38,276 nucleotides of DNA. Origin: Deltaproteobacteria bacterium (GTDB lineage Bacteria; Desulfobacterota; Dissulfuribacteria; Dissulfuribacterales; QOAL01). Shown piece by piece: positions 8,097-19,340 of this stretch. The DNA lies in NCBI GenBank assembly GCA_026995935.1, contig JALWNK010000055.1:1-38276 (forward strand). The letters run 5' to 3'. Under the pieces are notes generated by a model that saw only the letters and a program-made list of their open reading frames with translations, had not been told where the DNA came from and searched no databases. Within the stretch, counting starts at the first letter, position 1. The number at the start of each line of letters is the position of its first letter. A program made the position numbers and the translations under genes.

Positions 8097-9692
8097 ATGC
8101 ACACCTTAAAAAACTTGCGTTTAAAGACCTTGCTCCTGTTCTTGGCAGGAATTTGGGCAACCGGCCTGGGGCTTTTGGCCATCTTGGGATTTTCATACAT
8201 GAATCTTGTAGAAAAGGAAATTGGGGCCATGTCCACGGAAAATACTCCAGTCTCCATGGCAATAAGCCGTATCAAGTCGAGGCTTCTTACAAACTCAAAC
8301 ATCCTGCTTAAAGGCGAAAAAAACGCTGGCAACAGAGACAGTGACATCAAGAGCATTTCAAAAGACATCGAGGCCATAAAATCTGTCCTTGCAAAAGCGG
8401 TACTCCAAAAGGGTGAATCCAAGGGCCAATTTGAAAGGATGAATTCCCTTTTGATGACCTTTATTGACACTTTCAACCAGTATAAAAGGCTTATAAAAAC
8501 TGGACAAAATGATGTTGAATCATACGTGGGATATTCGGGTCCGTACCTGAGAAAACTAAGCCTTGGCCTTGAGAAACTCTCCCGGTTGGCTAACCGGATG
8601 GACTCTGAAATCGACAGTCTGAATGCTGATGCAATTAAAAGGATATCCAACAAGGCAATGAGGCAGAAACAACATGTGGCCCTTTTGTGCATGCTCATTT
8701 TAGCTGCCGGGCTCTCCTTCAGTTTTCTGGTATTCAGGGCCGTTGGTTCCAAACTGAAGGATACACGCGATGCTGTTTCTGCCATTGCAACAGGAGAGGC
8801 TGATTTGACCAAAAGGATCAAGGTGGATGGAAGTAGCGAGGTGGATGAAATCGCCGCCCTTTTAAACACCTTTATTGAGAGAATGCAGAAAATGATTAAA
8901 GAGATTAAGGAATACGGACTCCAGATGACCGCAGGAGCCAGGGAGGTAGGCGAATTGTCCTCCTCTCTCGCAAGCACCGCCGTGGAAGGAAATGCACAGT
9001 CTGAAGAGGTCGCAAAGTGCGCCTCTGACATGGGTGAACAGATGTCCAGTATTGCCGCAGCCATGGAGGAAATGACGGCAACAGTGGCAGAAATCGCACA
9101 AAATACTGCTGTTACCGGTCAGAAATCGTCAGAGGTTGCCCAAAAGACAAGGCAGGCCCGCGAATTGGTGGATGCCCTGGCCAACTCTTCTATCAGCATC
9201 AACGAGATGAGCAGCCTCATTGGCAACATTGCAGAACAAACCAACCTCCTTGCCCTCAATGCCACAATTGAGGCAGCAAGAGCCGGAGAGGCAGGCAAAG
9301 GCTTTGCAGTGGTTGCTGGCGAGGTGAAGGAACTCGCCAAGCAGACAAGCGAGGCTGTTCAAAAGATAGACCATACCGTAGAGGAGTTACAGGAACATAT
9401 AACCAGAGTAAAGACCGTCACAGACGATATCAGTGAATCAATAGAGGAAGTTAGCGAACTGGCCAACAGTGTTGCGGCCGCAGTGGAAGAGCAAACGGCA
9501 ACCACCAACGAGATAAGTGAGAACACCCAGGCGGTATCCAACAGCACCAGCCTGTTGGTTACCCAGAGCGAAGGAATCAAGGAAGCAAGTACCCAGACGG
9601 CTTCGGGCTCTGAACAGGCGAGGCTCTCCGCAGGTGAGATGTCTCTTACAGCAGAAAACCTGGAAAACACGCTGAAGGCCTTTAAGGTATAA
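8097..9692 (+). CDS. Methyl-accepting chemotaxis protein (transmembrane chemoreceptor)
   Basis: This 531-residue receptor passes an outside or periplasmic signal to CheA/CheW. A first membrane helix lies at about 11-33, then a helical periplasmic sensor (about 35-192, probably a four-helix bundle), a second membrane helix at about 193-214, a HAMP domain (about 215-265) and the signalling coiled coil. The hairpin tip is the highly conserved [30 protein letters not shown] block (378-407). The start was placed at 8097 because GAGGGG (8082-8087) sits 9 bases upstream; an in-frame start at 8061 has no such site. There is no C-terminal CheR/CheB-binding pentapeptide (it ends LKAFKV). No other chemotaxis gene is nearby, so the ligand and array are unknown. 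Confidence 0.92.
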
Positions 9693-9714
9693 AGACACCT
9701 GACACAACGAAAAA

Positions 9715-9733
9715 GGGCCTGTTTTACAGGCCC
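9715..9733. terminator. Rho-independent terminator shared by convergent genes
   Basis: GGGCCTGT (9715-9722) pairs with ACAGGCCC (9726-9733) around a 3-base loop. On the minus strand the stem is followed by CTTTTTC, so it best ends the stressosome-ydbL operon. It can also serve the chemoreceptor gene reading rightward. Confidence 0.8.
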
Positions 9734-9760
9734 CTTACACTCCCTGAATTTATTTCATAT

Positions 9761-10333
9761 CTACTTCCTCACCCATTTCCCTGGCTTTTTCTCAATAAAC
9801 GTCCCCTTTGGGGCCGTCTTCTGCCACTGCTGTGCGAAAATGGCCTGGACCCTGGAAATCTGGGAGGCCGGAATATTTAGGGCCTGTGCCACCGCCCTGT
9901 AAAGGGCCATCCTGTCCTTGTTCTCCGCATCAACCAGCTTCTTCAAGGCCGCCTTCTGCTTGAGCCCAAGCCCTGCAAGGCTCCTGATGGACAAAAGACC
10001 GTCCAGGCCTTCACCAACCAACCCCCTTTTCATGTATGGGACCAGGGACGGAAAGCGCTTCTTCATGCGATCCTTTAGCTGGCGGATGGTGGCGTTTGAA
10101 ACAGTGAGTTCACCTGCCGCATGTGCCTCACTGACGGAAAAGAGCCAGGAGGTGGGGGAGGTTGTTGTGTCCTGTCCATTTTCCTGCCCCTGCTTCTGCC
10201 TTACGTCCTTAACAATGTCTTCTGCGGCCTTCCTCACCTCTGCTGCCGGGAAATAGATGTTTACGGTAACGCAGGCCGTTACCAGAAAAAGTAGCGCAGT
10301 GATAAAAAGCCTGTAATTCTTCTTGCCAATCAT
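9761..10333 (-). CDS. YdbL-like DUF1318 lipoprotein
   Basis: A 190-residue protein with a lipoprotein signal: hydrophobic stretch then LVTAC, so C21 would be lipidated, followed directly by VTVNIYFPAAEV. The C-terminal half (about 75-185, with LKDRMKKRFPSLVPYM and GLVGEGLDGLL) matches the DUF1318/YdbL family. In E. coli, YdbH, YnbE and YdbL act together in envelope phospholipid transport. Here the gene directly follows a YdbH-like gene, sharing one base with it, which supports the same partnership. No separate ynbE is present; the lipidated N-terminus may stand in for it (inference). It is the last gene of the stressosome operon and precedes a strong terminator. Confidence 0.82.
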   Translation of the reverse strand: MIGKKNYRLFITALLFLVTACVTVNIYFPAAEVRKAAEDIVKDVRQKQGQENGQDTTTSPTSWLFSVSEAHAAGELTVSNATIRQLKDRMKKRFPSLVPYMKRGLVGEGLDGLLSIRSLAGLGLKQKAALKKLVDAENKDRMALYRAVAQALNIPASQISRVQAIFAQQWQKTAPKGTFIEKKPGKWVRK

Positions 10334-12033
10334 TAACGCACCTCCACTTTGCTTTGGCTGGATTTGCCAATTCTCTTGAGTCTGTCCAGCATGTCTCTAA
10401 AACTTATTTTGCCCTTAGAGTTCATATTAATCACATTGACTCCCCCGAAAAAGCCCCTTTTTACCAGATATTCCCTGTCGCCCTTTCTGTACAGGCCGTG
10501 GAGCTCAAAGACATCATTTTTGAGCCTGCAAGAGATACCAATCTTGCTGTAGGAAAACTCCTTGAAAAGCTGGCCCAGAAAGGATACAGAACCTCCTCCG
10601 CCTCCCAAAATGGACAGGTTCTCAATGGCCTTGATGCTTATCTTCTTGGAACGGCTTGCCTTCTCATCGGTTTTTACCAAAAGATCAAATGCCTCGGGCT
10701 GAGACCCGCTCATGACAAGCCCCTTTACCCAGCCCTCTACTGCCCCGGTCACCAGTCCAAAGGAGGTATTTTCTGTGACGGCCTTTAAATTGATGTGTTT
10801 AAAGTAGATATCTGCACCCCACCTTAAGATTGCTGCATAGGGCTCAATCCATATGTTTTTTATCTGAACCATTCCGCCGGCCACCTCTACATTGAGGCTT
10901 CCCTTAAAGACCAGCCTGTCGCCATTGAACCGGGCCTCTGGCAGGTTTCCTTCAACAACTATCTCAAGGGGAACCTCCCTGAATAACTTATGAGGCTTTA
11001 AGTCCTTGATCTTGATCCCCCTTAGCATCAAGGTTCCATGTGAAAACAGGAAACTTGCCTCCTCAAAGGAGATTGTGCCATTTCCAAGGTCCAGGGATAA
11101 CGGGCCAAAACTTCCCCTGTCATGACAAAGGGTTACTGGCAGTTTTTTCCCTGAGATACCAATCTCTTCTGGTGAGCGAAAGACGCCCTTTGGGAGCAAG
11201 GGCCTAAGATATATATCCTGCCAGCTCACATATCCCTTTTCACACCTGTCCTTCTTGAGAGGGTAGCAGACAACTGCCTTGAGCCCGTCTATAAACTTTT
11301 TTGACCTGTAAAGAAGCTGGCCAGCCAGGGTAAGGAAAATCTTGTCACCCTGGCCCCTTACCTGTGCGCTTCCCTCTGGTCTAAATTCCTTCACAATGGG
11401 ATGCGAATCAGAAAAGGCATCACGGACAAAAAGGTTGTAGGCACGCTGGATGTCTGCACTCATCTGCCAGTTGGAGCCAAGAAGGCGCTGAAGATAATCT
11501 GACGAGGCAGATTTCCCTTGAAGGGGAAGATGCACACCACCTGCCTTAATGGTAAAGGGGCCATAAATGAGTAAATCATCAATATGGAGGCTGCCATTTC
11601 TGACCCGCCCCCTTGCCTTTAGACTTCCTTTTATCTGGGACAGGTCAAAAAACCAGGGGAAGAAAAGCACCTGCCCCCTGGGCCAGGCGGCCTTAATCGT
11701 CCATGAGAAATCCTCAGCCCCTGGGGAAAACGAGCCGTCAGCCTGCAGATTCAAAAAAATATCCAGATCCTCAAAGGCGTGATCCTCGTCCTTTTGCCCT
11801 GCAAGGCCCTTTAACAAAAGCCTGCATTTAACATGAATGCCCTGAGCGTCCTGTTTTGTCTCAAATTCGCCATGGGGATAGTGTTTGATAGCCTGCCAGA
11901 GGGCCTTGGCATGGGGTCTAAGCCCACCTTGATCATTGGAATCCAAGGGGTATGCATGCAGGCAAGGGCAATGAAAGACTGCCATAGCCAAGGCCAGTGC
12001 AAAAAAAAACAAAAGGCTAAAAAGGCCCCTCAA
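10333..12033 (-). CDS. YdbH-like AsmA-type envelope (intermembrane lipid transport) protein
   Basis: 566 residues with an N-terminal signal or anchor (about 3-20) and then a long beta-rich body of the AsmA/YdbH kind. The C-terminal part (about 470-520, with SILGGGGGSVSFLGQLFKEF and FSYSKIGISCRL) resembles the conserved end of YdbH-family proteins, once called dicarboxylate transport proteins. Such proteins form a groove spanning the periplasm and carry lipids between membranes. It starts at a TTG with GGAAGG upstream, 17 bases inside the histidine-kinase-like gene, and ends on the first base of the DUF1318 gene. The signal-peptide codons contain a run of nine T on the coding strand. Family assignment is good; substrate is not visible. 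Confidence 0.75.
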   Translation of the reverse strand: MRGLFSLLFFFALALAMAVFHCPCLHAYPLDSNDQGGLRPHAKALWQAIKHYPHGEFETKQDAQGIHVKCRLLLKGLAGQKDEDHAFEDLDIFLNLQADGSFSPGAEDFSWTIKAAWPRGQVLFFPWFFDLSQIKGSLKARGRVRNGSLHIDDLLIYGPFTIKAGGVHLPLQGKSASSDYLQRLLGSNWQMSADIQRAYNLFVRDAFSDSHPIVKEFRPEGSAQVRGQGDKIFLTLAGQLLYRSKKFIDGLKAVVCYPLKKDRCEKGYVSWQDIYLRPLLPKGVFRSPEEIGISGKKLPVTLCHDRGSFGPLSLDLGNGTISFEEASFLFSHGTLMLRGIKIKDLKPHKLFREVPLEIVVEGNLPEARFNGDRLVFKGSLNVEVAGGMVQIKNIWIEPYAAILRWGADIYFKHINLKAVTENTSFGLVTGAVEGWVKGLVMSGSQPEAFDLLVKTDEKASRSKKISIKAIENLSILGGGGGSVSFLGQLFKEFSYSKIGISCRLKNDVFELHGLYRKGDREYLVKRGFFGGVNVINMNSKGKISFRDMLDRLKRIGKSSQSKVEVR

Positions 12034-13345
12034 TTTTGCCTTCCTTCCACCTTTCAGGGAAAATTAGACGCACCCTTGTACCCTTACCGGGACTGCTTTC
12101 TATATGCACCTGGCCCTGGTGTTCCTTCATTATGTGATGCACCATAATGAGGCCCACACCGGTTCCAGACGGCTTTGTCGTTACAAGCTCCTTGAATAGC
12201 CTGGTCTTGACATCGCTACTGATCCCAGGCCCCTGATCAACTATTTCCAAAACAGGCCTTCCGTCCACTTTTTCCACATTTACCTCCAGGTCCGAGCCTG
12301 CAGGGGAGGCGTCCACCGCATTCTTTAGAATATGCAGTATGGCCACCTTTAGTGTCCTCGGGTTAGCCCGTATCCTAATGGGTTCCTTGGCTGTATGAAA
12401 CCTGAGGTTTATTCCCTTTTTTTCAAAATTCGGCTCCCAGGCATCCAGTATTTCCCTCACCAGGTCCTGGAGGACAACCTGGGTCAGGAAACGCTCCTGC
12501 TGTCTTGCCAGGCCCTCAAAATCCTTGACTATGGCCTCGAGTTTCTGCGCTTCAAGGTAAATGGCCTCTATCTTCTCCCTGTCTGGAAAGTCCTTTGGCA
12601 GCCTTTTCAAGATTATCCTGGCAAGCCCCCCAATTACCGTTGCCGGGTTACGGATCTTGTCGGCTATGCGAAGGGCAAACTCCACCACGGTCCTTTCATG
12701 AACCAGGGATTCCATGTCCCTGCTAAGCTCCAGAAGCTCTGCATTGACCTTGTCAAGCTCCTTGTTTTTGAGCGACAGGGTCTTTAAGAGGGAAAGGACC
12801 TCTTCATGTTTTGCCCTGAGATTTTCCATGTATGATTCTTCAACATCCCTGAAGAGCTGCTGTCGAATCCTTTCCTGCCCCTTGAGAAGCTCGTCACAGC
12901 TTGCCTGCCCGCCAAGAATGACCACCTTGAGCTCAAAGCCTTCCTCTCCTGTCCCGGGATTCACCTGGAAATGGTCTGCCATTGATTTCATTGGCCCAAA
13001 TATTCGGGTGAAATCGCCATGCTCTTCATTGGTATAGCTTTCCACGGGGCATGATTTCTTTCCAATAAAATGCACCATGATCCCTGACGGGCTGCCACTA
13101 AAGGAGGCATTAGACGCTTCACTTGCACACACCAGGAAAAAGACGACCCTTCCCCCTCCGGTGTTCTTAATCAAAAAACGTGCTACTTCCGAGGCCATAA
13201 GGGCGATCTGTACCCGCTTTGTGCCTGAAAAACCGCATATCCCTCCCAAAAGCTTGGCCTTTGACCTTGCAAGGGGAATATCCCTCTGGCGCTTAATGAC
13301 CAGGGTAAGGACGTGAATCTGGTGGCTCAGGCCTTCCATTTCCAT
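12017..13345 (-). CDS. Histidine-kinase-like protein lacking the phospho-acceptor histidine, with degenerate RsbT-like N-terminus
   Basis: 442 residues. Residues about 10-75 (RDIPLARSKAKLLGG, then ASEVARFLIKNTGGGRV) resemble the RsbT-type ATPase fold, but the N-box Asn is replaced by Phe (SEVARF). A coiled coil follows (about 155-220). The dimerisation segment reads RIADKIRNPATVIGG (226-240), where kinases normally have AHEIRNP, so Asp229 stands where the His should be. The C-terminal HATPase is intact: N342, DQGPGI (370-375) and GTGVGL (394-399). It may be an ATP-binding output or partner-switch component rather than a normal kinase. It overlaps both neighbours (19 and 17 bases) in the stressosome operon. 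No response regulator is adjacent. Confidence 0.8.
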   Translation of the reverse strand: MEMEGLSHQIHVLTLVIKRQRDIPLARSKAKLLGGICGFSGTKRVQIALMASEVARFLIKNTGGGRVVFFLVCASEASNASFSGSPSGIMVHFIGKKSCPVESYTNEEHGDFTRIFGPMKSMADHFQVNPGTGEEGFELKVVILGGQASCDELLKGQERIRQQLFRDVEESYMENLRAKHEEVLSLLKTLSLKNKELDKVNAELLELSRDMESLVHERTVVEFALRIADKIRNPATVIGGLARIILKRLPKDFPDREKIEAIYLEAQKLEAIVKDFEGLARQQERFLTQVVLQDLVREILDAWEPNFEKKGINLRFHTAKEPIRIRANPRTLKVAILHILKNAVDASPAGSDLEVNVEKVDGRPVLEIVDQGPGISSDVKTRLFKELVTTKPSGTGVGLIMVHHIMKEHQGQVHIESSPGKGTRVRLIFPERWKEGKIEGPF

Positions 13346-14415
13346 ACCACCAATGTTGCGTCATCCTGATGTCTTGGCTCCTGGCCGCAAAGAGAAAAGA
13401 GATAGTTGGTCCATATTATGGCCGGGATATCCATAAGTGCCTGATTGAAACGCACCCTTGGGACATGCCCAAGGCCATCTGTATAGAAGATGCCCATTAT
13501 GTCTGAAAATTGAGCTATCTCTATGGCCTCAACAGTTCTCCTGGTACTCACCGGACCGATGGGCCCTCTGCGGTCGGAAACGAAGCGCTCCCTGCCGTCG
13601 ATGAAGAGGAAGTGTTCAACATCTCCTGCCGCTCCAATAAGTATTTCAGGCTCCTCCACATTGACCCTGACCGCCTGGGCCATTATGCCGCGGGTGCCAA
13701 CCATCTCGTTTCCAAGGGCAAGAAGAAGGTCTTGAGGGTGGGTCTTGGAAGGCACAAGGGCGAGGAAGCGTTTCGCCTCAGCAAGGATTTGTGCCGCCTG
13801 TCGCCCCTTGCCCAGGGCGTCCATGACAACCATTTGAAAAAAGGGATAATCAAAGGAAAAGAAAAAGCCGTCTCCGCACAGGAGCGATTCCCCTGCCGGC
13901 CTTATGAGAAAGGAAAAGTCCATTGGGATTTCCTTGAACTTTTCCCTGGGCTCCACGAAGGATGCGGCAACAAGGGTGGCAAACTCCCTGCTTCCAAGAA
14001 GCAGGTCAGGACAGGGGGATTCACCAAGTTTTCCGGAGCAGAGCCCGAAACTGTCTGCAAGCCTCTTTACAGTGCCAAGGCCTGCACCAAGACTGCCCCT
14101 ACCCAAACCATCCTTATGATGAATGGCCCCAGGGTTCATTCCCGGGCCCATATCGAGACTCGACATGACAATGACCGCCTCCTTCTCACCCGTTCTCTGA
14201 CCAAAAATCCGTATAATGCCATTGTCTGTATTATGATCCAGGTGGTTCTGGGCAAGCTCTGTCACGCACAGGGAAACATCGGCCACCCGCTTTTCAGAAA
14301 ACCCGAGCCTCTTGGCAAAATCCCTTGCAGCCCGCCTTGCAAGAAGGACATGGGCCTCCATGGAGACCCCTCTTTCATACCAAAGCGGCTGAAGGCCTTC
14401 TATATCCATTTCCAC
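13327..14415 (-). CDS. rsbX: RsbT-like ATPase domain fused to RsbX/SpoIIE-type phosphatase
   Basis: 362 residues. The N-terminal half (about 15-150) is an RsbT-type HATPase with VTELAQN (51-57), SLDMGPGM (86-93) and GLG (112-114). The C-terminal half (about 165-360) is a PP2C/SpoIIE-type phosphatase of RsbX kind, with GDGFFFSF, VVMDALGKGRQA, FYTDGLG and QDDATLVVW. RsbX resets the stressosome by removing phosphates from RsbR and RsbS. The fusion pairs a putative kinase or adaptor with the phosphatase in one chain. The gene overlaps rsbT by 16 bases and the next gene by 19 bases. Confidence 0.85.
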   Translation of the reverse strand: MEMDIEGLQPLWYERGVSMEAHVLLARRAARDFAKRLGFSEKRVADVSLCVTELAQNHLDHNTDNGIIRIFGQRTGEKEAVIVMSSLDMGPGMNPGAIHHKDGLGRGSLGAGLGTVKRLADSFGLCSGKLGESPCPDLLLGSREFATLVAASFVEPREKFKEIPMDFSFLIRPAGESLLCGDGFFFSFDYPFFQMVVMDALGKGRQAAQILAEAKRFLALVPSKTHPQDLLLALGNEMVGTRGIMAQAVRVNVEEPEILIGAAGDVEHFLFIDGRERFVSDRRGPIGPVSTRRTVEAIEIAQFSDIMGIFYTDGLGHVPRVRFNQALMDIPAIIWTNYLFSLCGQEPRHQDDATLVVWKWKA

Positions 14416-14831
14416 ACTTCCACGTATGCGCCGCCTTCAACCAGGCTGCCAATCCGAAGGTCGTCACAGATGGACTTAAGGAGATTCAGCCCCATTCCCA
14501 TTCCCCTGTCCTCTGAATAACCGGGCCTGAGTGCCCTCTCTAAATCCTCTATGCCGGCTCCCCTGTCCTCTGCCACCATCCTAATGCCTACTTTGTCCCC
14601 CTTTATATAGGCTGAAATGCATATCAACCCCTTTTCTCCGTGGCGGAGGATGTTGTTACCAAGCTCATCAAGGATGGTCAGGAGCCTTGCCACCTTTATC
14701 TCGTCACTAACGTTTACTTCTGACAGGATGTCTCTAAGGGCCTTTCGTGCCTGTGAAAGACCCACCTTTTTGGACACGGTGACACACCTTTTATGAATAT
14801 CCAGCCGGGGGCCCTCTTTATGAGCCAACAT
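14400..14831 (-). CDS. rsbT: RsbT-like serine/threonine protein kinase (stressosome switch kinase)
   Basis: 143 residues with a complete GHKL ATPase core: LDELGNNILRHG (N-box), EDRGAGI (G1) and GMGMGLNLLKSICD (G2). In stressosomes RsbT is held by RsbR-RsbS, phosphorylates both on stress, and then leaves to activate a downstream target. It lies directly after rsbS with a 14-base overlap, in the standard R-S-T order. No SigB-type sigma factor or RsbU is visible here, so its released target is probably another protein of this operon or one elsewhere. Confidence 0.88.
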   Translation of the reverse strand: MLAHKEGPRLDIHKRCVTVSKKVGLSQARKALRDILSEVNVSDEIKVARLLTILDELGNNILRHGEKGLICISAYIKGDKVGIRMVAEDRGAGIEDLERALRPGYSEDRGMGMGLNLLKSICDDLRIGSLVEGGAYVEVWKWI

Positions 14832-15189
14832 CCACTATCCTGCAGCCAAGTTTTGACAGGGCGTGCTCAGCATCCAGGGCAAAGCGAAGCTCCCTGCCAA
14901 AACTCATGTCAAAGGCCTTGAGGGCGGAGATAGCATGTGCCCCAAGGCCTGCAACCACGACCTCTGCCCTGAACAGGTTCATGGTGGTGGCAAGCCTCTG
15001 TATGTTCTCTGCAAGGTAGGTATCCATGACCTCTACATCTGAAAGATCAACTATTACTGCCCTTGCCCCGACAGTTCGAACCTTGCGGGTTAGCTCCTTA
15101 AGCAGCTCCTTCACCTGTTCATCATCTATCTCCTCCTGCAGGTAAACGAGGAGAATTCGCCCGAGACGAAAGATTGAGAAGGCCTTCAT
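14818..15189 (-). CDS. rsbS: RsbS-like single-STAS stressosome scaffold protein
   Basis: 123 residues forming one STAS domain. The motif VIVDLSDVEVMDTYLAE (46-61) holds D56-T57, at the place where RsbS of Bacillus has Asp-Ser; T57 is therefore the likely phospho-acceptor (by analogy). GLGAHAISALKAFDM matches the second conserved loop. It sits between rsbR (8-base gap) and rsbT (14-base overlap). The ribosome site (GGCGGA at the end of rsbR) is only fair. Confidence 0.88.
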   Translation of the reverse strand: MKAFSIFRLGRILLVYLQEEIDDEQVKELLKELTRKVRTVGARAVIVDLSDVEVMDTYLAENIQRLATTMNLFRAEVVVAGLGAHAISALKAFDMSFGRELRFALDAEHALSKLGCRIVDVGS

Positions 15190-15197
15190 CTAAAAAT

Positions 15198-16079
15198 CTA
15201 TCCGCCTGTCTGATCCTCTAAGGCGCGTATGGCCTTTGCCTGGTGCTCCTTCATCTTCATTATCTGCTGCATGGCATAGTGGAGCCCGTCGGCCATACGG
15301 CTCCTCACGTTTATGGTTCCAAGGTCCACCCCGAGATGTGCCATGGTAAGGGCGATGCGGGAGGATATTCCGGTAAGCACTGCCTCGCTGCCCATTAATC
15401 TTACTGCATCAACTGTCTGCAGCAGATAGTTTGCCACTGCCGTATCCACATTGGGCACACCTGTGATGTCGATTATCACAAAGGGGGAACGGGTTGATTC
15501 TATGGTGACAAGGAGTCTTTCCATGGCAGATTGTGCCCTGTGGCTGTCCAGGGTCCCCACAAGGGGCAGGGCAAGCACCCCGTCCCACACCTCGATAACC
15601 GGGGTTGAAAGCTCAAGTATCTCCTCCTGGAGGTGACGTATGTCCTCGTCGCGTTTCTTGAGCAGCTCCTCCTGCTGCTTCAGTATGAGCCTTTCCTTTT
15701 CAAGCCTGTCTGAGATGTCGATGAAGTGCTCTACGCAACCAATCACTTCCCCCTTGTGATTCTTTATGGGGCGGCTGGCAAATTCTATGGGTATCTCCCT
15801 GTCCCCTGCCTTCAAGGTGGTCTGACCCTGGTTAACGGTGTTGTTCTTTGTGGCGACCCTGCACGTGCACTGCTCTGTCTGGCACATGGGGGTGTTAAAG
15901 ATCTCGTAACACTTCCGGTCGAAGCAGTCGCCTGGTGTACGTCCAACCATCTCCGCTCCGGCCCTGTTGATGATGAGTATGTTGTTGTCAAGGTCTGTTA
16001 CGAAAATTCCAGACGGCACTGCATTAATTATCTCAAACAGAAAACCCTCGTCCCCCTGGTAGTCCTTAAGCTCGGTCAT
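15198..16079 (-). CDS. rsbR: RsbR-like stressosome sensor with cysteine-rich PAS domain and STAS domain
   Basis: 293 residues. A PAS domain (about 10-125) replaces the globin-like sensor of Bacillus RsbR. A coiled coil (about 125-160) leads to a C-terminal STAS domain with WDGVLALPLVGTLDS, DITGVPNVDTAVANYLL and VLTGISSRIALTMAHLGVDL. T213 and T245 are likely phospho-acceptors by family analogy. The PAS domain contains C52, C57, C66, C71 and C73 (pattern C-x8-C-x4-C-x-C within it), which suggests metal, haem or redox sensing. The ATG at 16079 was chosen because GGAGAAGG lies just upstream; a GTG at 16100 lacks support. It is the first gene of the seven-gene operon. Confidence 0.88.
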   Translation of the reverse strand: MTELKDYQGDEGFLFEIINAVPSGIFVTDLDNNILIINRAGAEMVGRTPGDCFDRKCYEIFNTPMCQTEQCTCRVATKNNTVNQGQTTLKAGDREIPIEFASRPIKNHKGEVIGCVEHFIDISDRLEKERLILKQQEELLKKRDEDIRHLQEEILELSTPVIEVWDGVLALPLVGTLDSHRAQSAMERLLVTIESTRSPFVIIDITGVPNVDTAVANYLLQTVDAVRLMGSEAVLTGISSRIALTMAHLGVDLGTINVRSRMADGLHYAMQQIMKMKEHQAKAIRALEDQTGG

Positions 16080-16434
16080 GGTCCTTCTCCTTTTGGTCAC
16101 ATGATTAAAAATTGTAACAAAAAGCAGCTTCTTCGTCTAATGGTGCTTCACTAGACAAAAAGGCGAAGACCTAAAAGGTCGGCCCTGATCAGGATTGCCC
16201 GGAGAAATCACTTTAGCTGGCAACTACAAGCGTATCGAGTTCTATAACGCAAGACAGAAAGGATTCTCGTTAGGCTGTTCCATAAATGGAGAGGACTCAT
16301 GTTCCACAGGGAACATCGTTTCCAAACTGACGTACATTGTTGCCTCAAAGGGGCCAGGGTTTGCCAGCCCTCGTCCAATTCCACCTCGCCCTAAAGTTCT
16401 GAGTAACAGGCTCGCAAAACCGAGAACCCCCTGC
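16080..16434. other. Intergenic region upstream of the stressosome operon, with inverted repeats
   Basis: About 355 bases with no credible gene. It holds a perfect 7-bp inverted repeat, ATGTTCC (16299-16305) and GGAACAT (16310-16316), plus shorter ones: GACCT/AGGTC near 16170 and GTCTA/TAGAC near 16135-16157. They could be operator sites or RNA hairpins for rsbR expression; nothing in the sequence decides which. Confidence 0.5.
16111..16140 (-). promoter_or_regulatory. Candidate promoter of the stressosome operon
   Basis: On the minus strand TTAGAC (16140-16135) and TACAAT (16116-16111) are 18 bases apart, about 30 bases before the rsbR ATG. The -35 match is imperfect. Confidence 0.4.
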
Positions 16435-16992
16435 CTAAGGTCGAGGAAGGTCACACTCTCTGGCGTTTCTTGAAAGTAGCATGAGAAAGATCCCGTCCAT
16501 CAGGAGGCTTATTCCAACCATCCAGCCAAGGTACCAGTGGGTGCTGTAGGGCCAGAACATGATAAAGCCTGCTGCAAGTGCAAGGGACAAGATTCCGCTC
16601 ACAAACAGGAAGAGCCACCCCGGCTGGGGTTTCATATCCAGGGCGAGGGTAATGCTTGCCACCCCATCCAGGATAAAATAGATGAAAATGGCAATCCCCA
16701 GAACAACCACCAAGGCAAAGGGCTTAAGAGCTATGAACAAACCGAGGATCAGGGGAGTGAGTGCCTTGAGCCAGGATATTCTATCCCGCTGGCCGGTGAG
16801 GTAGGTGAAAAGGCACAAGACCACGCCTGTAAGTATGAGCATCAGTGCTATCACCAGTGAGACGGCAACGGCTATGAGCTTTGGGGCCACAATGCCCAGG
16901 ATGCCAATCAGGCAAAGCACAATGCCAAATATCTGAAGTTTTCTTGCAAGGTCCCTGTCCATGCAGACAAGAAAGGAAAATCTTTGATTCAT
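16435..16992 (-). CDS. HdeD-family (DUF308) membrane protein
   Basis: 185 residues that are almost entirely membrane helices, about six, arranged as three helical pairs. Segments such as GIVLCLIGILGIVAPKLIAVAVSL and GIAIFIYFILDGVASI fit the HdeD/DUF308 pattern. HdeD of enteric bacteria is linked to acid resistance; whether that holds here is unknown. The start ATG has GGGAG 7 bases upstream. It follows the DUF190 gene by 24 bases on the same strand, so probably belongs to the fluoride-channel operon. Confidence 0.75.
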   Translation of the reverse strand: MNQRFSFLVCMDRDLARKLQIFGIVLCLIGILGIVAPKLIAVAVSLVIALMLILTGVVLCLFTYLTGQRDRISWLKALTPLILGLFIALKPFALVVVLGIAIFIYFILDGVASITLALDMKPQPGWLFLFVSGILSLALAAGFIMFWPYSTHWYLGWMVGISLLMDGIFLMLLSRNARECDLPRP

Positions 16993-17016
16993 CTGTCTTC
17001 TCCCAAAAATATCTGA

Positions 17017-17358
17017 TCAGCTACTTTTATAGGTCAGTACGTGGACATTTTGAAGGGTGATCATCCCGGCAGGCACCATTTCATCAAGTCCAAGAAGTAC
17101 CTTTTCTATCTTCACCGGGTCATCCACTACCTCCACCACCACGGGCAGATCAACTGAAAGGGAGAGAATATCAACGGTTCGGAAGTAGCTGTTTGGCCCA
17201 TAACCGGCAATGGCCCTGTACACCGTTGCTCCTGCTATGTCGCTTTCCTTGAGATAGTCAAGAATGGCCTTGTAAAGAGGCTTCCCTCTGAACTTGTCCT
17301 TTTCCCCAATGTAGATGCGCATGCACATCTGATCTCCCTCTAAGCGCGTGGTGGTCAT
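17017..17358 (-). CDS. DUF190 protein, fluoride-channel companion
   Basis: 113 residues, small soluble alpha/beta protein with MRIYIGEKDKFRGKPLY, AGATVYRAIAGYG and LPVVVEVVDDPVKIEKVL. These are the hallmarks of DUF190, a PII-like fold often found next to crcB/fluC. The ribosome site AGGAGG directly precedes the ATG at 17358. It lies 16 bases after fluC. A regulatory role on the channel is plausible from the PII-like fold but is not shown by sequence. Confidence 0.85.
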   Translation of the reverse strand: MTTTRLEGDQMCMRIYIGEKDKFRGKPLYKAILDYLKESDIAGATVYRAIAGYGPNSYFRTVDILSLSVDLPVVVEVVDDPVKIEKVLLGLDEMVPAGMITLQNVHVLTYKSS

Positions 17359-17374
17359 CTTCCCCTCCTTTTTT

Positions 17375-17749
17375 TCATCCCATGAGGCGACTTACAACAA
17401 ACCCAAGCCAGCCCGCCAGAAGGCACAGAAACAGGTTTCCAAAAACATTAAGAAAGGCCACGATATTGTATCCATCCTGGAACAGGGACAGGGTCTCGAA
17501 ACTGAAGGTGGAAAATGTGGTAAAGGCCCCGCAAAAACCAACAGTCACGGCCGCCCTGATCTCTGGGGATATCTGATATACTTCTAAACTCAAAGGAAGA
17601 AAAAGACAAAGGAAAAAGCTGCCCACAACATTTACAAACAGGGTTCCATAGGGGAAGCCAGGCCCCAAGAGCCTGTGTACAAGAGAGGCGGCAAGATACC
17701 TGGAAATGGCTCCGAAAAAGCCGCCCATTCCAATGAATATCAGGTCCAT
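17375..17749 (-). CDS. crcB: Fluoride ion channel FluC/CrcB
   Basis: 124 residues with four membrane helices. FGAISRYLA, GTLFVNVVGSF and the signature GFCGAFTTFSTFSFE are those of dual-topology fluoride exporters in the inner membrane, which protect against cytoplasmic fluoride. Only one copy is present, as expected for a homodimer. No fluoride riboswitch was seen; the gene is internal to an operon, 34 bases after the ASKHA gene, with GGGAGAAG before its ATG. Confidence 0.93.
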   Translation of the reverse strand: MDLIFIGMGGFFGAISRYLAASLVHRLLGPGFPYGTLFVNVVGSFFLCLFLPLSLEVYQISPEIRAAVTVGFCGAFTTFSTFSFETLSLFQDGYNIVAFLNVFGNLFLCLLAGWLGFVVSRLMG

Positions 17750-17783: not shown

Positions 17784-19340
17784 TCAGCTCAGATTAAGCC
17801 TTTTGGCAACGCTTGGAAAGCGGCTCAGGTCCGTATGGGGAAGGAAAAGGGCGCCAGTCAGCTGGTTCATAAAATCCCCCCTCACGTTCATCTCCAGGTA
17901 GGTGATTTTTTCGCAGATCTCGTCCATCTTCTCCAGGGACTTTTGCTCAAGGAGCACGCGGACCGCCCCCTTTCCCGCAGAATTTCCAAGGGGCTTAAAC
18001 TTTTCAAGGGGAATATCCGGAAGCATTCCAATGGCAATGGCCTTTTTGGGGTCGATGTAGTTTCCAAAGGCACCGGCCACAAAAAAGTTGTCTATGTCCT
18101 CAAAGGTGATGCCAACGCTCTGTATCACAACGTTCAATATGGTGTACATGGCCCCCTTGGAACGGATAAGATTTTTTATATCGCTCTGGGTGATGTAGAC
18201 AGGTTTGCCCTCTGCCGTCTCTGACTCAAAGGCGACCACGTAGGCCCACTCGTGGCCAATCTGTTTCATCCTGGCAGGGTCCAGGTCAACCATGAGCTTT
18301 CCCGTCTGGTCCACAAGGCCTGCCTCGAACATGGCTGCCAGAAGATCGATTATTCCAGAGCCGCAAAGGCCCCTTGGCTTCTCATCCCCAATGGTCTTTA
18401 CATGAACGGAAAGGTCCTTTGGATCTATCTCCACCCGTTCAATGGCCCCTGGCTGCGCCCTCATTCCGCAGGAAAGAATGCCACCCTCAAGGGCCGGACC
18501 TGCAGCGCCGGCACATGCAACGAGCCAGTCCTTGTTTCCCAGCACCACCTCTGCGTTGGTTCCAACATCCACCAGAAGGGAAATCTCGTGGCGCTCTGCC
18601 ATCTTCGAGGCAAGGATTCCGGCAATGAGATCACCTCCAAAGTAGCTTCCCACATTTGGAAGCACGTATATGGAGGACTGGGGATTTATTTCAAGGCCTA
18701 GCTCCGAAGGGCTTACGAAGTCAAACCTGTTTACGGCAGGGATGTAAGGCTCCTTGCAGATGTTACTGGGGTCGAGCCTAAGAAGAAAATGGCACATGGT
18801 AGTGTTTCCGGCAACGCTTACAAAGAGGATGTCCTGGGCATCTACCCCGCACTTTGAGCAAAGCTCCCTTATGGAATCGTTAAAAAGATCCACCACCTCT
18901 TTTTGAAGCTCCTCCAGGCCGCCCCTTTGGGCAAACATGATCCTGTCCAGGATGTCTTCCCCGTGGGCCCTTTGCGGGTTTTCCCTCGAAAGGGTGCGAA
19001 GCGTCTTTCCGGAAACAAGGTCCACCAGGTAAAAGACCACAGAGGTGGAGCCAAGATCCACGGCCAGCCCCAGCACCCTTCCGGGCCTCTCTAAGGGCCT
19101 GCATGCGCAAATCCGCCAGCCGCACTGGTCCCTTGTGAGCAGTGCGCTTACACTAAAACCTGCATAAGAAAGCTCTTCAGGAAGCCTGCGGGCAACATCC
19201 AGGGGAAGATGGAAGGGGCCCGGGCCAAAGTCCTGGGTAAGTGCGTCACGGAGGCGCTTTTCAGGGCTTCGGTTGTCCCCCAGGGCAGGCTCCTTGAGCC
19301 TCAGGGGGACTGACTTAGCTACCGGATCAAAACCGCTCAT
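17784..19340 (-). CDS. ASKHA-domain ATPase (DUF4445, RACo/RamA-like), without ferredoxin domain
   Basis: 518 residues. Proteins of this family (RACo, RamA) use ATP to re-reduce inactive Co(II) corrinoid proteins. The actin-like ASKHA fold is clear: GLAVDLGSTSVVFYLVDL, SVAGNTTMCHFLL, LLVDVGTNAEVVLG, CAGAAGPALEGG, GLCGSGIIDLLA and FFVAGAFGNYIDPKKA. Relatives usually begin with a 2Fe-2S ferredoxin domain; here the protein starts directly with the linker region, and no C-terminal Fe-S cysteine cluster is seen. It overlaps the small membrane-protein gene by 14 bases. No corrinoid protein or methyltransferase is nearby, so its partner must be elsewhere. Confidence 0.85.
   Translation of the reverse strand: MSGFDPVAKSVPLRLKEPALGDNRSPEKRLRDALTQDFGPGPFHLPLDVARRLPEELSYAGFSVSALLTRDQCGWRICACRPLERPGRVLGLAVDLGSTSVVFYLVDLVSGKTLRTLSRENPQRAHGEDILDRIMFAQRGGLEELQKEVVDLFNDSIRELCSKCGVDAQDILFVSVAGNTTMCHFLLRLDPSNICKEPYIPAVNRFDFVSPSELGLEINPQSSIYVLPNVGSYFGGDLIAGILASKMAERHEISLLVDVGTNAEVVLGNKDWLVACAGAAGPALEGGILSCGMRAQPGAIERVEIDPKDLSVHVKTIGDEKPRGLCGSGIIDLLAAMFEAGLVDQTGKLMVDLDPARMKQIGHEWAYVVAFESETAEGKPVYITQSDIKNLIRSKGAMYTILNVVIQSVGITFEDIDNFFVAGAFGNYIDPKKAIAIGMLPDIPLEKFKPLGNSAGKGAVRVLLEQKSLEKMDEICEKITYLEMNVRGDFMNQLTGALFLPHTDLSRFPSVAKRLNLS

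Follow-up and report, generated by a model that had tools for sequence, protein, structure and literature searches.

Two separable gene units in one row: a stressosome with a putative phosphatase-type output protein and a YdbH-YdbL-like envelope pair

The signal output of Gram-negative stressosomes without sigma-B is an open question. It is raised by a row of seven genes in a stretch of 38,276 nucleotides, hereafter the window, from Deltaproteobacteria bacterium of the order Dissulfuribacterales (contig JALWNK010000055.1, assembly GCA_026995935.1, positions 1 to 38,276). In this row, rsbR, rsbS, rsbT, a gene for an RsbT-phosphatase fusion (rsbTX) and a gene for a histidine kinase-like (HK-like) protein are followed by a ydbH-like gene and a ydbL-like gene of the DUF1318 family (together ydbHL). 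An earlier note on this DNA had proposed envelope or outer-membrane lipid balance as the output, reached through dosage of the lipid-transport pair or through the kinase-like protein. The reading preferred here, with a probability of about 55%, is that two units share one transcript: a stressosome with a Cys-rich PAS domain, whose output would be a phosphatase-type pseudo-kinase, and ydbHL, which would be co-transcribed for coordinated dosage.

The survey covered 46 genomes of the order, and presence calls depend on the thresholds given. Many of the relatives are fragmented assemblies, so that absence from a single assembly can be a gap; the conclusion on separability rests on two syntenic cases and several near-complete genomes. 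The full-length HK-like protein is encoded in 25/46 genomes and DUF1318 in 24/46. The HK-ydbH-ydbL linkage occurs in 13/46 genomes (four genera, three families), i.e., in 13 of the 16 genomes having both. Of these 13, seven belong to this genus and four to a second genus of the family; two other families have one each. The gene order is thus not peculiar to this contig. On the other hand, the rsb unit is not followed by ydbHL in 12 genomes; most of these lack any DUF1318 gene and three have one elsewhere. Wherever the HK-like gene is present, it is the last gene of the rsb unit, and in those of the 12 unlinked genomes in which the downstream sequence is readable it is followed by unrelated genes.

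The reverse situation is found in two congeners. G007 (99% complete) shows nucleotide synteny with the window on both sides, i.e., over DUF308-crcB and over ydbH-ydbL and the gene for a methyl-accepting chemotaxis protein (MCP); the five rsb genes are missing exactly between DUF308 and ydbH, and a PurQ-like gene stands in their place. G001 has a pilin-type gene beside ydbH and no rsb genes. RsbR and the HK-like protein were not found in G001 or G007, and the border of the missing unit falls between the HK-like gene and ydbH. As judged from gene order, the row is made of two separable units, rsbR-S-T-TX-HK and ydbHL. Since these come apart both ways, the survey suggests that the fixed downstream partner of the stressosome is the HK-like protein and not the lipid pair. 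It must be added that the PurQ-like glutamine amidotransferase gene of the congener is L030:6369-7199.

Is the linkage then meaningless? ydbHL could just sit behind the rsb unit with no functional tie, in agreement with the separability in both directions and with the looser arrangement in the two other families, in which the linked genes do not overlap; in G034, HK and ydbH are separated by a small cytochrome gene, and in G042 the genes stand 43 and 161 nt apart. Such a neutral neighbourhood is rather unlikely: the linkage has been kept or repeatedly gained across three families at 33-46% protein identity, and the chance of lying next to one particular gene is about 1 in 4600 per lineage. In a tree of RsbR and the HK-like protein the linkage falls in three lineages; one early linkage with losses and up to three gains are not distinguished. 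These three lineages, the share of genomes with both in which the genes are linked and the persistence of tight overlaps in genera g1 and g4 would also suit outer-membrane lipid balance, set by ydbH-ydbL dosage, as the physiological output. This is considered improbable, given the 12 genomes in which the stressosome-HK unit is not followed by ydbHL, the two congeners with ydbHL alone, and TamB, which is also encoded in the genome and makes the YdbH-like protein unlikely as the sole lipid bridge.

The envelope-lipid output of the earlier note is partly supported. The refuting condition named there, a gene order found on this contig alone, does not hold; ydbHL as obligate output was rejected on the basis of the 12 genomes and the two reverse congeners. 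Direct action of the stressosome on YdbH or YdbL was also rejected, both proteins carrying export signals and the DUF1318 protein a lipobox. Because the pair is exported and the stressosome cytosolic, the two units could be tied only by shared expression, which is the likeliest meaning of the linkage; the overlaps suggest a single transcript for the rsb genes and ydbHL. Of the two routes proposed, the one by way of the kinase-like protein has the better support, though not as an ordinary histidine kinase. In literature searches, no paper came up that connects a stressosome with YdbH, AsmA or phospholipid transport.

The HK-like protein comprises a degenerate RsbT-like domain (about residues 1-150), a coiled coil, a HisKA domain and an intact HATPase domain. 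In Pfam, HATPase_c is matched, and HisKA with 24.6 bits, i.e., under the cut-off of 26.9. The first 150 residues show homology with RsbT (hhalign E 2e-9) as well as with the RsbT-like part of TX (E 2e-10), with loss of the N-box Asn; in the structure model (pLDDT 78) the order of strands and helices of the N-terminus matches the RsbT-like fold. Three RsbT-like domains thereby stand in succession in the row (RsbT, TX and HK-like). The Foldseek matches of the model include ZraS and DivL.

The phospho-His site of HisKA is occupied by Asp in 25/25 orthologs (Asp229 in the window). The residue at +1 is Lys, Arg or Gln in 25/25, i.e., the kinase-specific acidic residue is gone: the motif reads A-D-K/R/Q-x-R-N-P in HK-like proteins and A-H-E-x-R-N-P in kinases. 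Asn +4 (N233) and the surrounding RNP motif are invariant, and so are the N, G1 and G2 boxes of the HATPase (N342, D370, G372, G374, G396 and G398). The neighbouring PilS proteins retain His at the phospho-acceptor site. The HisKA-HATPase fold is common to CrdS and other HisKA bifunctional kinases, in which Asn +4 is needed for phosphatase activity, and, by structure, to ZraS; the CrdS mutants H371A and E372A are kinase-dead and retain phosphatase activity, which is lost in N375A (PMC3510030). Because the phospho-accepting His is missing in all orthologs, unlike in these kinases, the HK-like protein, on the evidence of its residues, cannot autophosphorylate in the usual way or work as an ordinary histidine kinase. 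Because the ATP site and the phosphatase Asn are kept, it is probably a kinase-dead pseudo-histidine kinase of phosphatase type, acting on a response regulator.

The invariant ATP boxes in a protein without phospho-His would also be compatible with a Ser/Thr-type GHKL kinase or an ATP-gated scaffold, like pseudokinases such as DivL, instead of a phosphatase. RsbT, the homologue of the N-terminus, is a Ser/Thr kinase, and DivL is among the Foldseek matches. Nevertheless, a scaffold has no obvious need of an invariant HisKA Asn +4 and RNP motif, and this possibility appears doubtful. As a separate observation, the phospho-acceptor site is His in some members and Asp in others of a membrane kinase family that is widespread in the phylum (sets compared: L060-L064, L066 and L079 vs. 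L068-L075, L077, L078 and L080); the genes of this family usually lie behind a small membrane protein and, where inspected, have no adjacent regulator.

A protein of G030, a genome of the same order, bears on the wiring. It has 399 aa (L123:5060-6259) and joins an RsbR-type PAS (53% identity over 152 aa) to an HK-like HisKA(Asp)-HATPase part (47% over 245 aa); neither a full-length HK-like protein nor an RsbR STAS protein was found in G030 at the thresholds used. Such a junction of PAS and effector with no stressosome in between is expected if the stressosome couples that PAS to that effector, and the fusion supports, at the level of domain architecture, a PAS-to-effector wiring.

Which regulator would be dephosphorylated? 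One candidate is a regulator of PilR/NtrC type, through which the stressosome would modulate type IV pili or a related sigma-54 regulon. In six genomes of five families (G009, G013, G021, G023, G026 and G028), rsbR is preceded at a distance of 63-764 nt by a PilS-like/NtrC-type pair. In the congeners G002, G003 and G004, rsbR has a divergently oriented pseudopilin gene as its neighbour; in G001 such a gene adjoins ydbH, and GspE/GspF genes follow the pseudopilin gene as far as the contig shows. This target is hardly probable, as PilS homologues are present in 41/46 genomes, stressosome-free ones included, and as the residues of DHp helix 1, the usual site of regulator specificity, differ (IRNPLASLSGA in PilS vs. 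IRNPATVIGGL in the HK-like protein). A partner search by way of kinases with a near-identical DHp helix (L096-L102) was given up, all of them being orphans with no adjacent regulator.

Upstream of the output protein, RsbR and RsbS are recognized by their STAS domains (54.7 and 37.3 bits in Pfam). RsbR identity is 56-98% across the order, and a motif of five Cys in its PAS, CFDRKCYEIFNTPMCQTEQCTC, is nearly invariant, which makes this domain a candidate metal, Fe-S or redox sensor. It may be noted that RsbR is much better conserved than the neighbouring proteins. The phospho-acceptor Thr/Ser positions of STAS domains are presumed here from B. subtilis. Candidate sites are present in the window, i.e., VDT and IALT in RsbR and MDT in RsbS (Thr, within MDTYLA in the alignment); the first RsbR Thr is replaced by Ala in five genomes (L046, L083, L084, L085 and L090). 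RsbT conserves the N-box Asn, DxGxG and GxGxG, with E56, N60, D89, G91, G93, G110, G112 and G114 invariant in the alignment. The N-terminus of TX is homologous to RsbT (hhalign E 7e-18). In Pfam, rsbTX is matched by HATPase_c_2 and by SpoIIE, the latter at 18.2 bits, under the 25-bit cut-off; the Asp motifs of PP2C phosphatases are present (MDALGKG, YTDGL and QDDATL). A search for related loci with RsbT gave three records, all of them metagenome-assembled genomes named "Deltaproteobacteria bacterium".

The preferred reading, two units on one transcript, may be set out as follows: (i) rsbR-S-T-TX-HK would be a complete stressosome, with a feedback phosphatase of its own and an output protein dedicated to it; (ii) the Cys-rich PAS of RsbR would sense a signal, perhaps redox or metal; (iii) by homology, RsbT would phosphorylate RsbR and RsbS and then leave, and the TX phosphatase would reset the system; (iv) RsbT, or the RsbT-like part of TX, would act on the HK-like protein through its degenerate RsbT-like domain; (v) the HK-like protein would, most likely, dephosphorylate a response regulator; (vi) in this lineage, ydbH-like and DUF1318 would be on the same transcript, and the envelope supply would follow the levels of the stressosome, the second unit being neither needed for the first nor dependent on it.

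Several observations weigh against this reading. The phosphatase activity is read from residues only, and the H-to-D exchange was not one of the CrdS mutants studied; in PleC, H610A is reported to have abolished both activities (PMC3510030), and relatives with Asp at the phospho-His site might use another chemistry. No response regulator gene lies beside the HK-like gene in the window or elsewhere in this lineage, and no partner regulator was found. No separate RsbT gene could be found in G026, G028, G033 and G034; G034 has also lost the PP2C motifs. Finally, the overlaps between genes are what suggests the single transcript.

The identity of the second unit is less marked. The DUF1318 protein is matched in Pfam with 63.7 bits (cut-off 27) and, by its lipobox LVTAC, followed by VTVNIYFPAAEV, is itself a predicted lipoprotein. 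The YdbH-like protein belongs to no Pfam family, and PF11739 (YdbH) has no match in its own genome at E<=1; this model works elsewhere, with matches in the E. coli control and in 16/20 genomes searched. What stands of the YdbH label is the position before the DUF1318 gene, a long, elongated beta-sheet in the structure model (pLDDT 81) and a match to the canonical YdbH profile (hhalign probability 96.5) over 76 columns only. A fold search of the PDB with this model gave no match at E<0.001. The protein is shorter than its relatives of 830-990 aa. E. coli has three redundant lipid bridges that are collectively essential, YdbH being one of them (PMC8593681); there, YdbH interacts with the lipoprotein YnbE (PMC12977461). 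The pair of the window would be an envelope lipid bridge of the YdbH-YnbE-YdbL kind.

Compared with E. coli, both have a large, beta-rich exported protein with a DUF1318 protein directly after it; the window differs by the length of the first protein (566 aa and not 879), the missing PF11739 match, the lack of a separate YnbE gene and the lipoprotein nature of the DUF1318 protein. The DUF1318 protein also has a TVNIYFP segment, and it may be a YnbE-YdbL fusion; the match to YnbE is suggestive with the signal peptide (E 9e-6) and vanishes once the signal peptide is removed (E 0.014, probability 3%). Two subtypes occur in the phylum, i.e., canonical YdbH-YnbE-small YdbL and a divergent large protein with a lipoprotein DUF1318 and no YnbE; both are present within this order (L108-L112 and L114-L122 vs. 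the YdbH-like family of the window type).

The features of the row are collected in Table 1. The open reading frame (ORF) calls place the seven genes in one row on the minus strand, from 16079 to 9761, with a gap of 8 nt between rsbR and rsbS and overlaps of 14, 16, 19, 17 and 1 nt at the successive junctions from rsbS onward. Together with the folding, they bear out the earlier description of a single-strand row with overlaps of 1-19 nt and a closing terminator; the domain labels (RsbR, RsbS, RsbT, RsbT-PP2C fusion, kinase-like and DUF1318) agree with the Pfam scan.

Table 1. Positions of the genes and signals of the row in the window.
Feature	Position	Strand	Size or value	Description	Basis
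rsbR	15198..16079	-	293 aa	Cys-rich PAS + STAS	Pfam PAS_4, STAS
rsbS	14818..15189	-	123 aa	single STAS domain	Pfam STAS, alignment
rsbT	14400..14831	-	143 aa	GHKL switch kinase	Pfam HATPase_c_2, alignment
rsbTX	13327..14415	-	362 aa	RsbT-like domain + PP2C (RsbX/SpoIIE type) phosphatase, fused	Pfam, hhalign
HK-like output protein	12017..13345	-	442 aa		Pfam, alignment, hhalign, structure model, Foldseek
YdbH-like envelope protein	10333..12033	-	566 aa	TTG start	model, weak profile match
YdbL-like DUF1318 lipoprotein	9761..10333	-	190 aa		Pfam DUF1318, alignment
Intrinsic terminator, end of row	9712..9736	-	-18.4 kcal/mol, z -3.7		
Promoter-like site TAGACG-17-TACAAT, TG-extended	16111..16139	-		sole such site upstream of rsbR; not significant	

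By comparison of folding with shuffled sequences, the terminator of Table 1 is the sole convincing one of the row; the MCP gene is convergent to the row and ends at 9692. A terminator-like hairpin at the HK-ydbH junction (12032-12010) was dismissed, its folding being no better than that of shuffles (z -0.2). The promoter scan gave 3 matches vs. 5.4 expected by chance and is uninformative on internal promoters. At the same junction, the ATG start of ydbH in most orthologs (22-nt overlap) has no open counterpart in the window (12010-12040); with the TTG start (17-nt overlap), the first bases encode a poly-T/Phe signal peptide. Upstream of rsbR (16435-17749) are the genes for DUF308, DUF190 and the fluoride exporter CrcB, with a ClC-type chloride channel gene instead in genus g4; 17784-19340 encodes an AcsV-like corrinoid activation protein (NCBIfam E 3e-152, under the cut-off of that model). 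A further gene pair is convergent to the HK-like gene or, in the absence of the stressosome, lies beside ydbH (L083:8053-9396, L085:7741-9159, L090:7300-8643 and L044:4350-5708); its first gene in L044 encodes a multihaem cytochrome c7-like protein.

Among known systems, Bacillus subtilis rsbRSTUVW-sigB-rsbX shares RsbR, RsbS, RsbT and an RsbX-type phosphatase with the window, and differs by the output, which is HisKA-like in the window. RsbU, RsbV, RsbW and SigB are absent from the row in the ORF and Pfam scan, and no sigma-B was seen among the window genes examined, in line with the earlier note, the genome itself not having been searched for these. The rsbRSTX stressosome of Vibrio vulnificus, with its VvD1-VvD2 output (PMC9237108), is likewise a single cluster of a minimal RsbRST and RsbX without sigma-B, with a two-component-type output gene directly downstream. 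The window departs from Vibrio in that a Cys-rich PAS takes the place of the globin in RsbR, RsbX forms a fusion with an RsbT-like domain, the output protein lacks the phospho-His and includes an RsbT-like domain of its own, and ydbHL lies behind.

For Vibrio, an interaction between RsbT and the downstream protein could not be demonstrated (PMC9237108). The downstream protein of the window carries an RsbT-like domain of its own, and its effector part is fused to the same sensor PAS in a stressosome-free genome. The missing His predicts a definite activity for the HK-like protein, i.e., phosphatase without kinase. It can be proposed, very tentatively, that the RsbT fold, present in a third copy and joined to a kinase-dead HisKA module, would have evolved into a phosphatase-type output by which a regulator is switched off through partner switching, and that, with lipid-bridge genes on the same transcript, one sensor would set both a regulon and the envelope lipid supply. 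Close relatives that naturally have or lack each unit offer ready comparisons for the envelope link.

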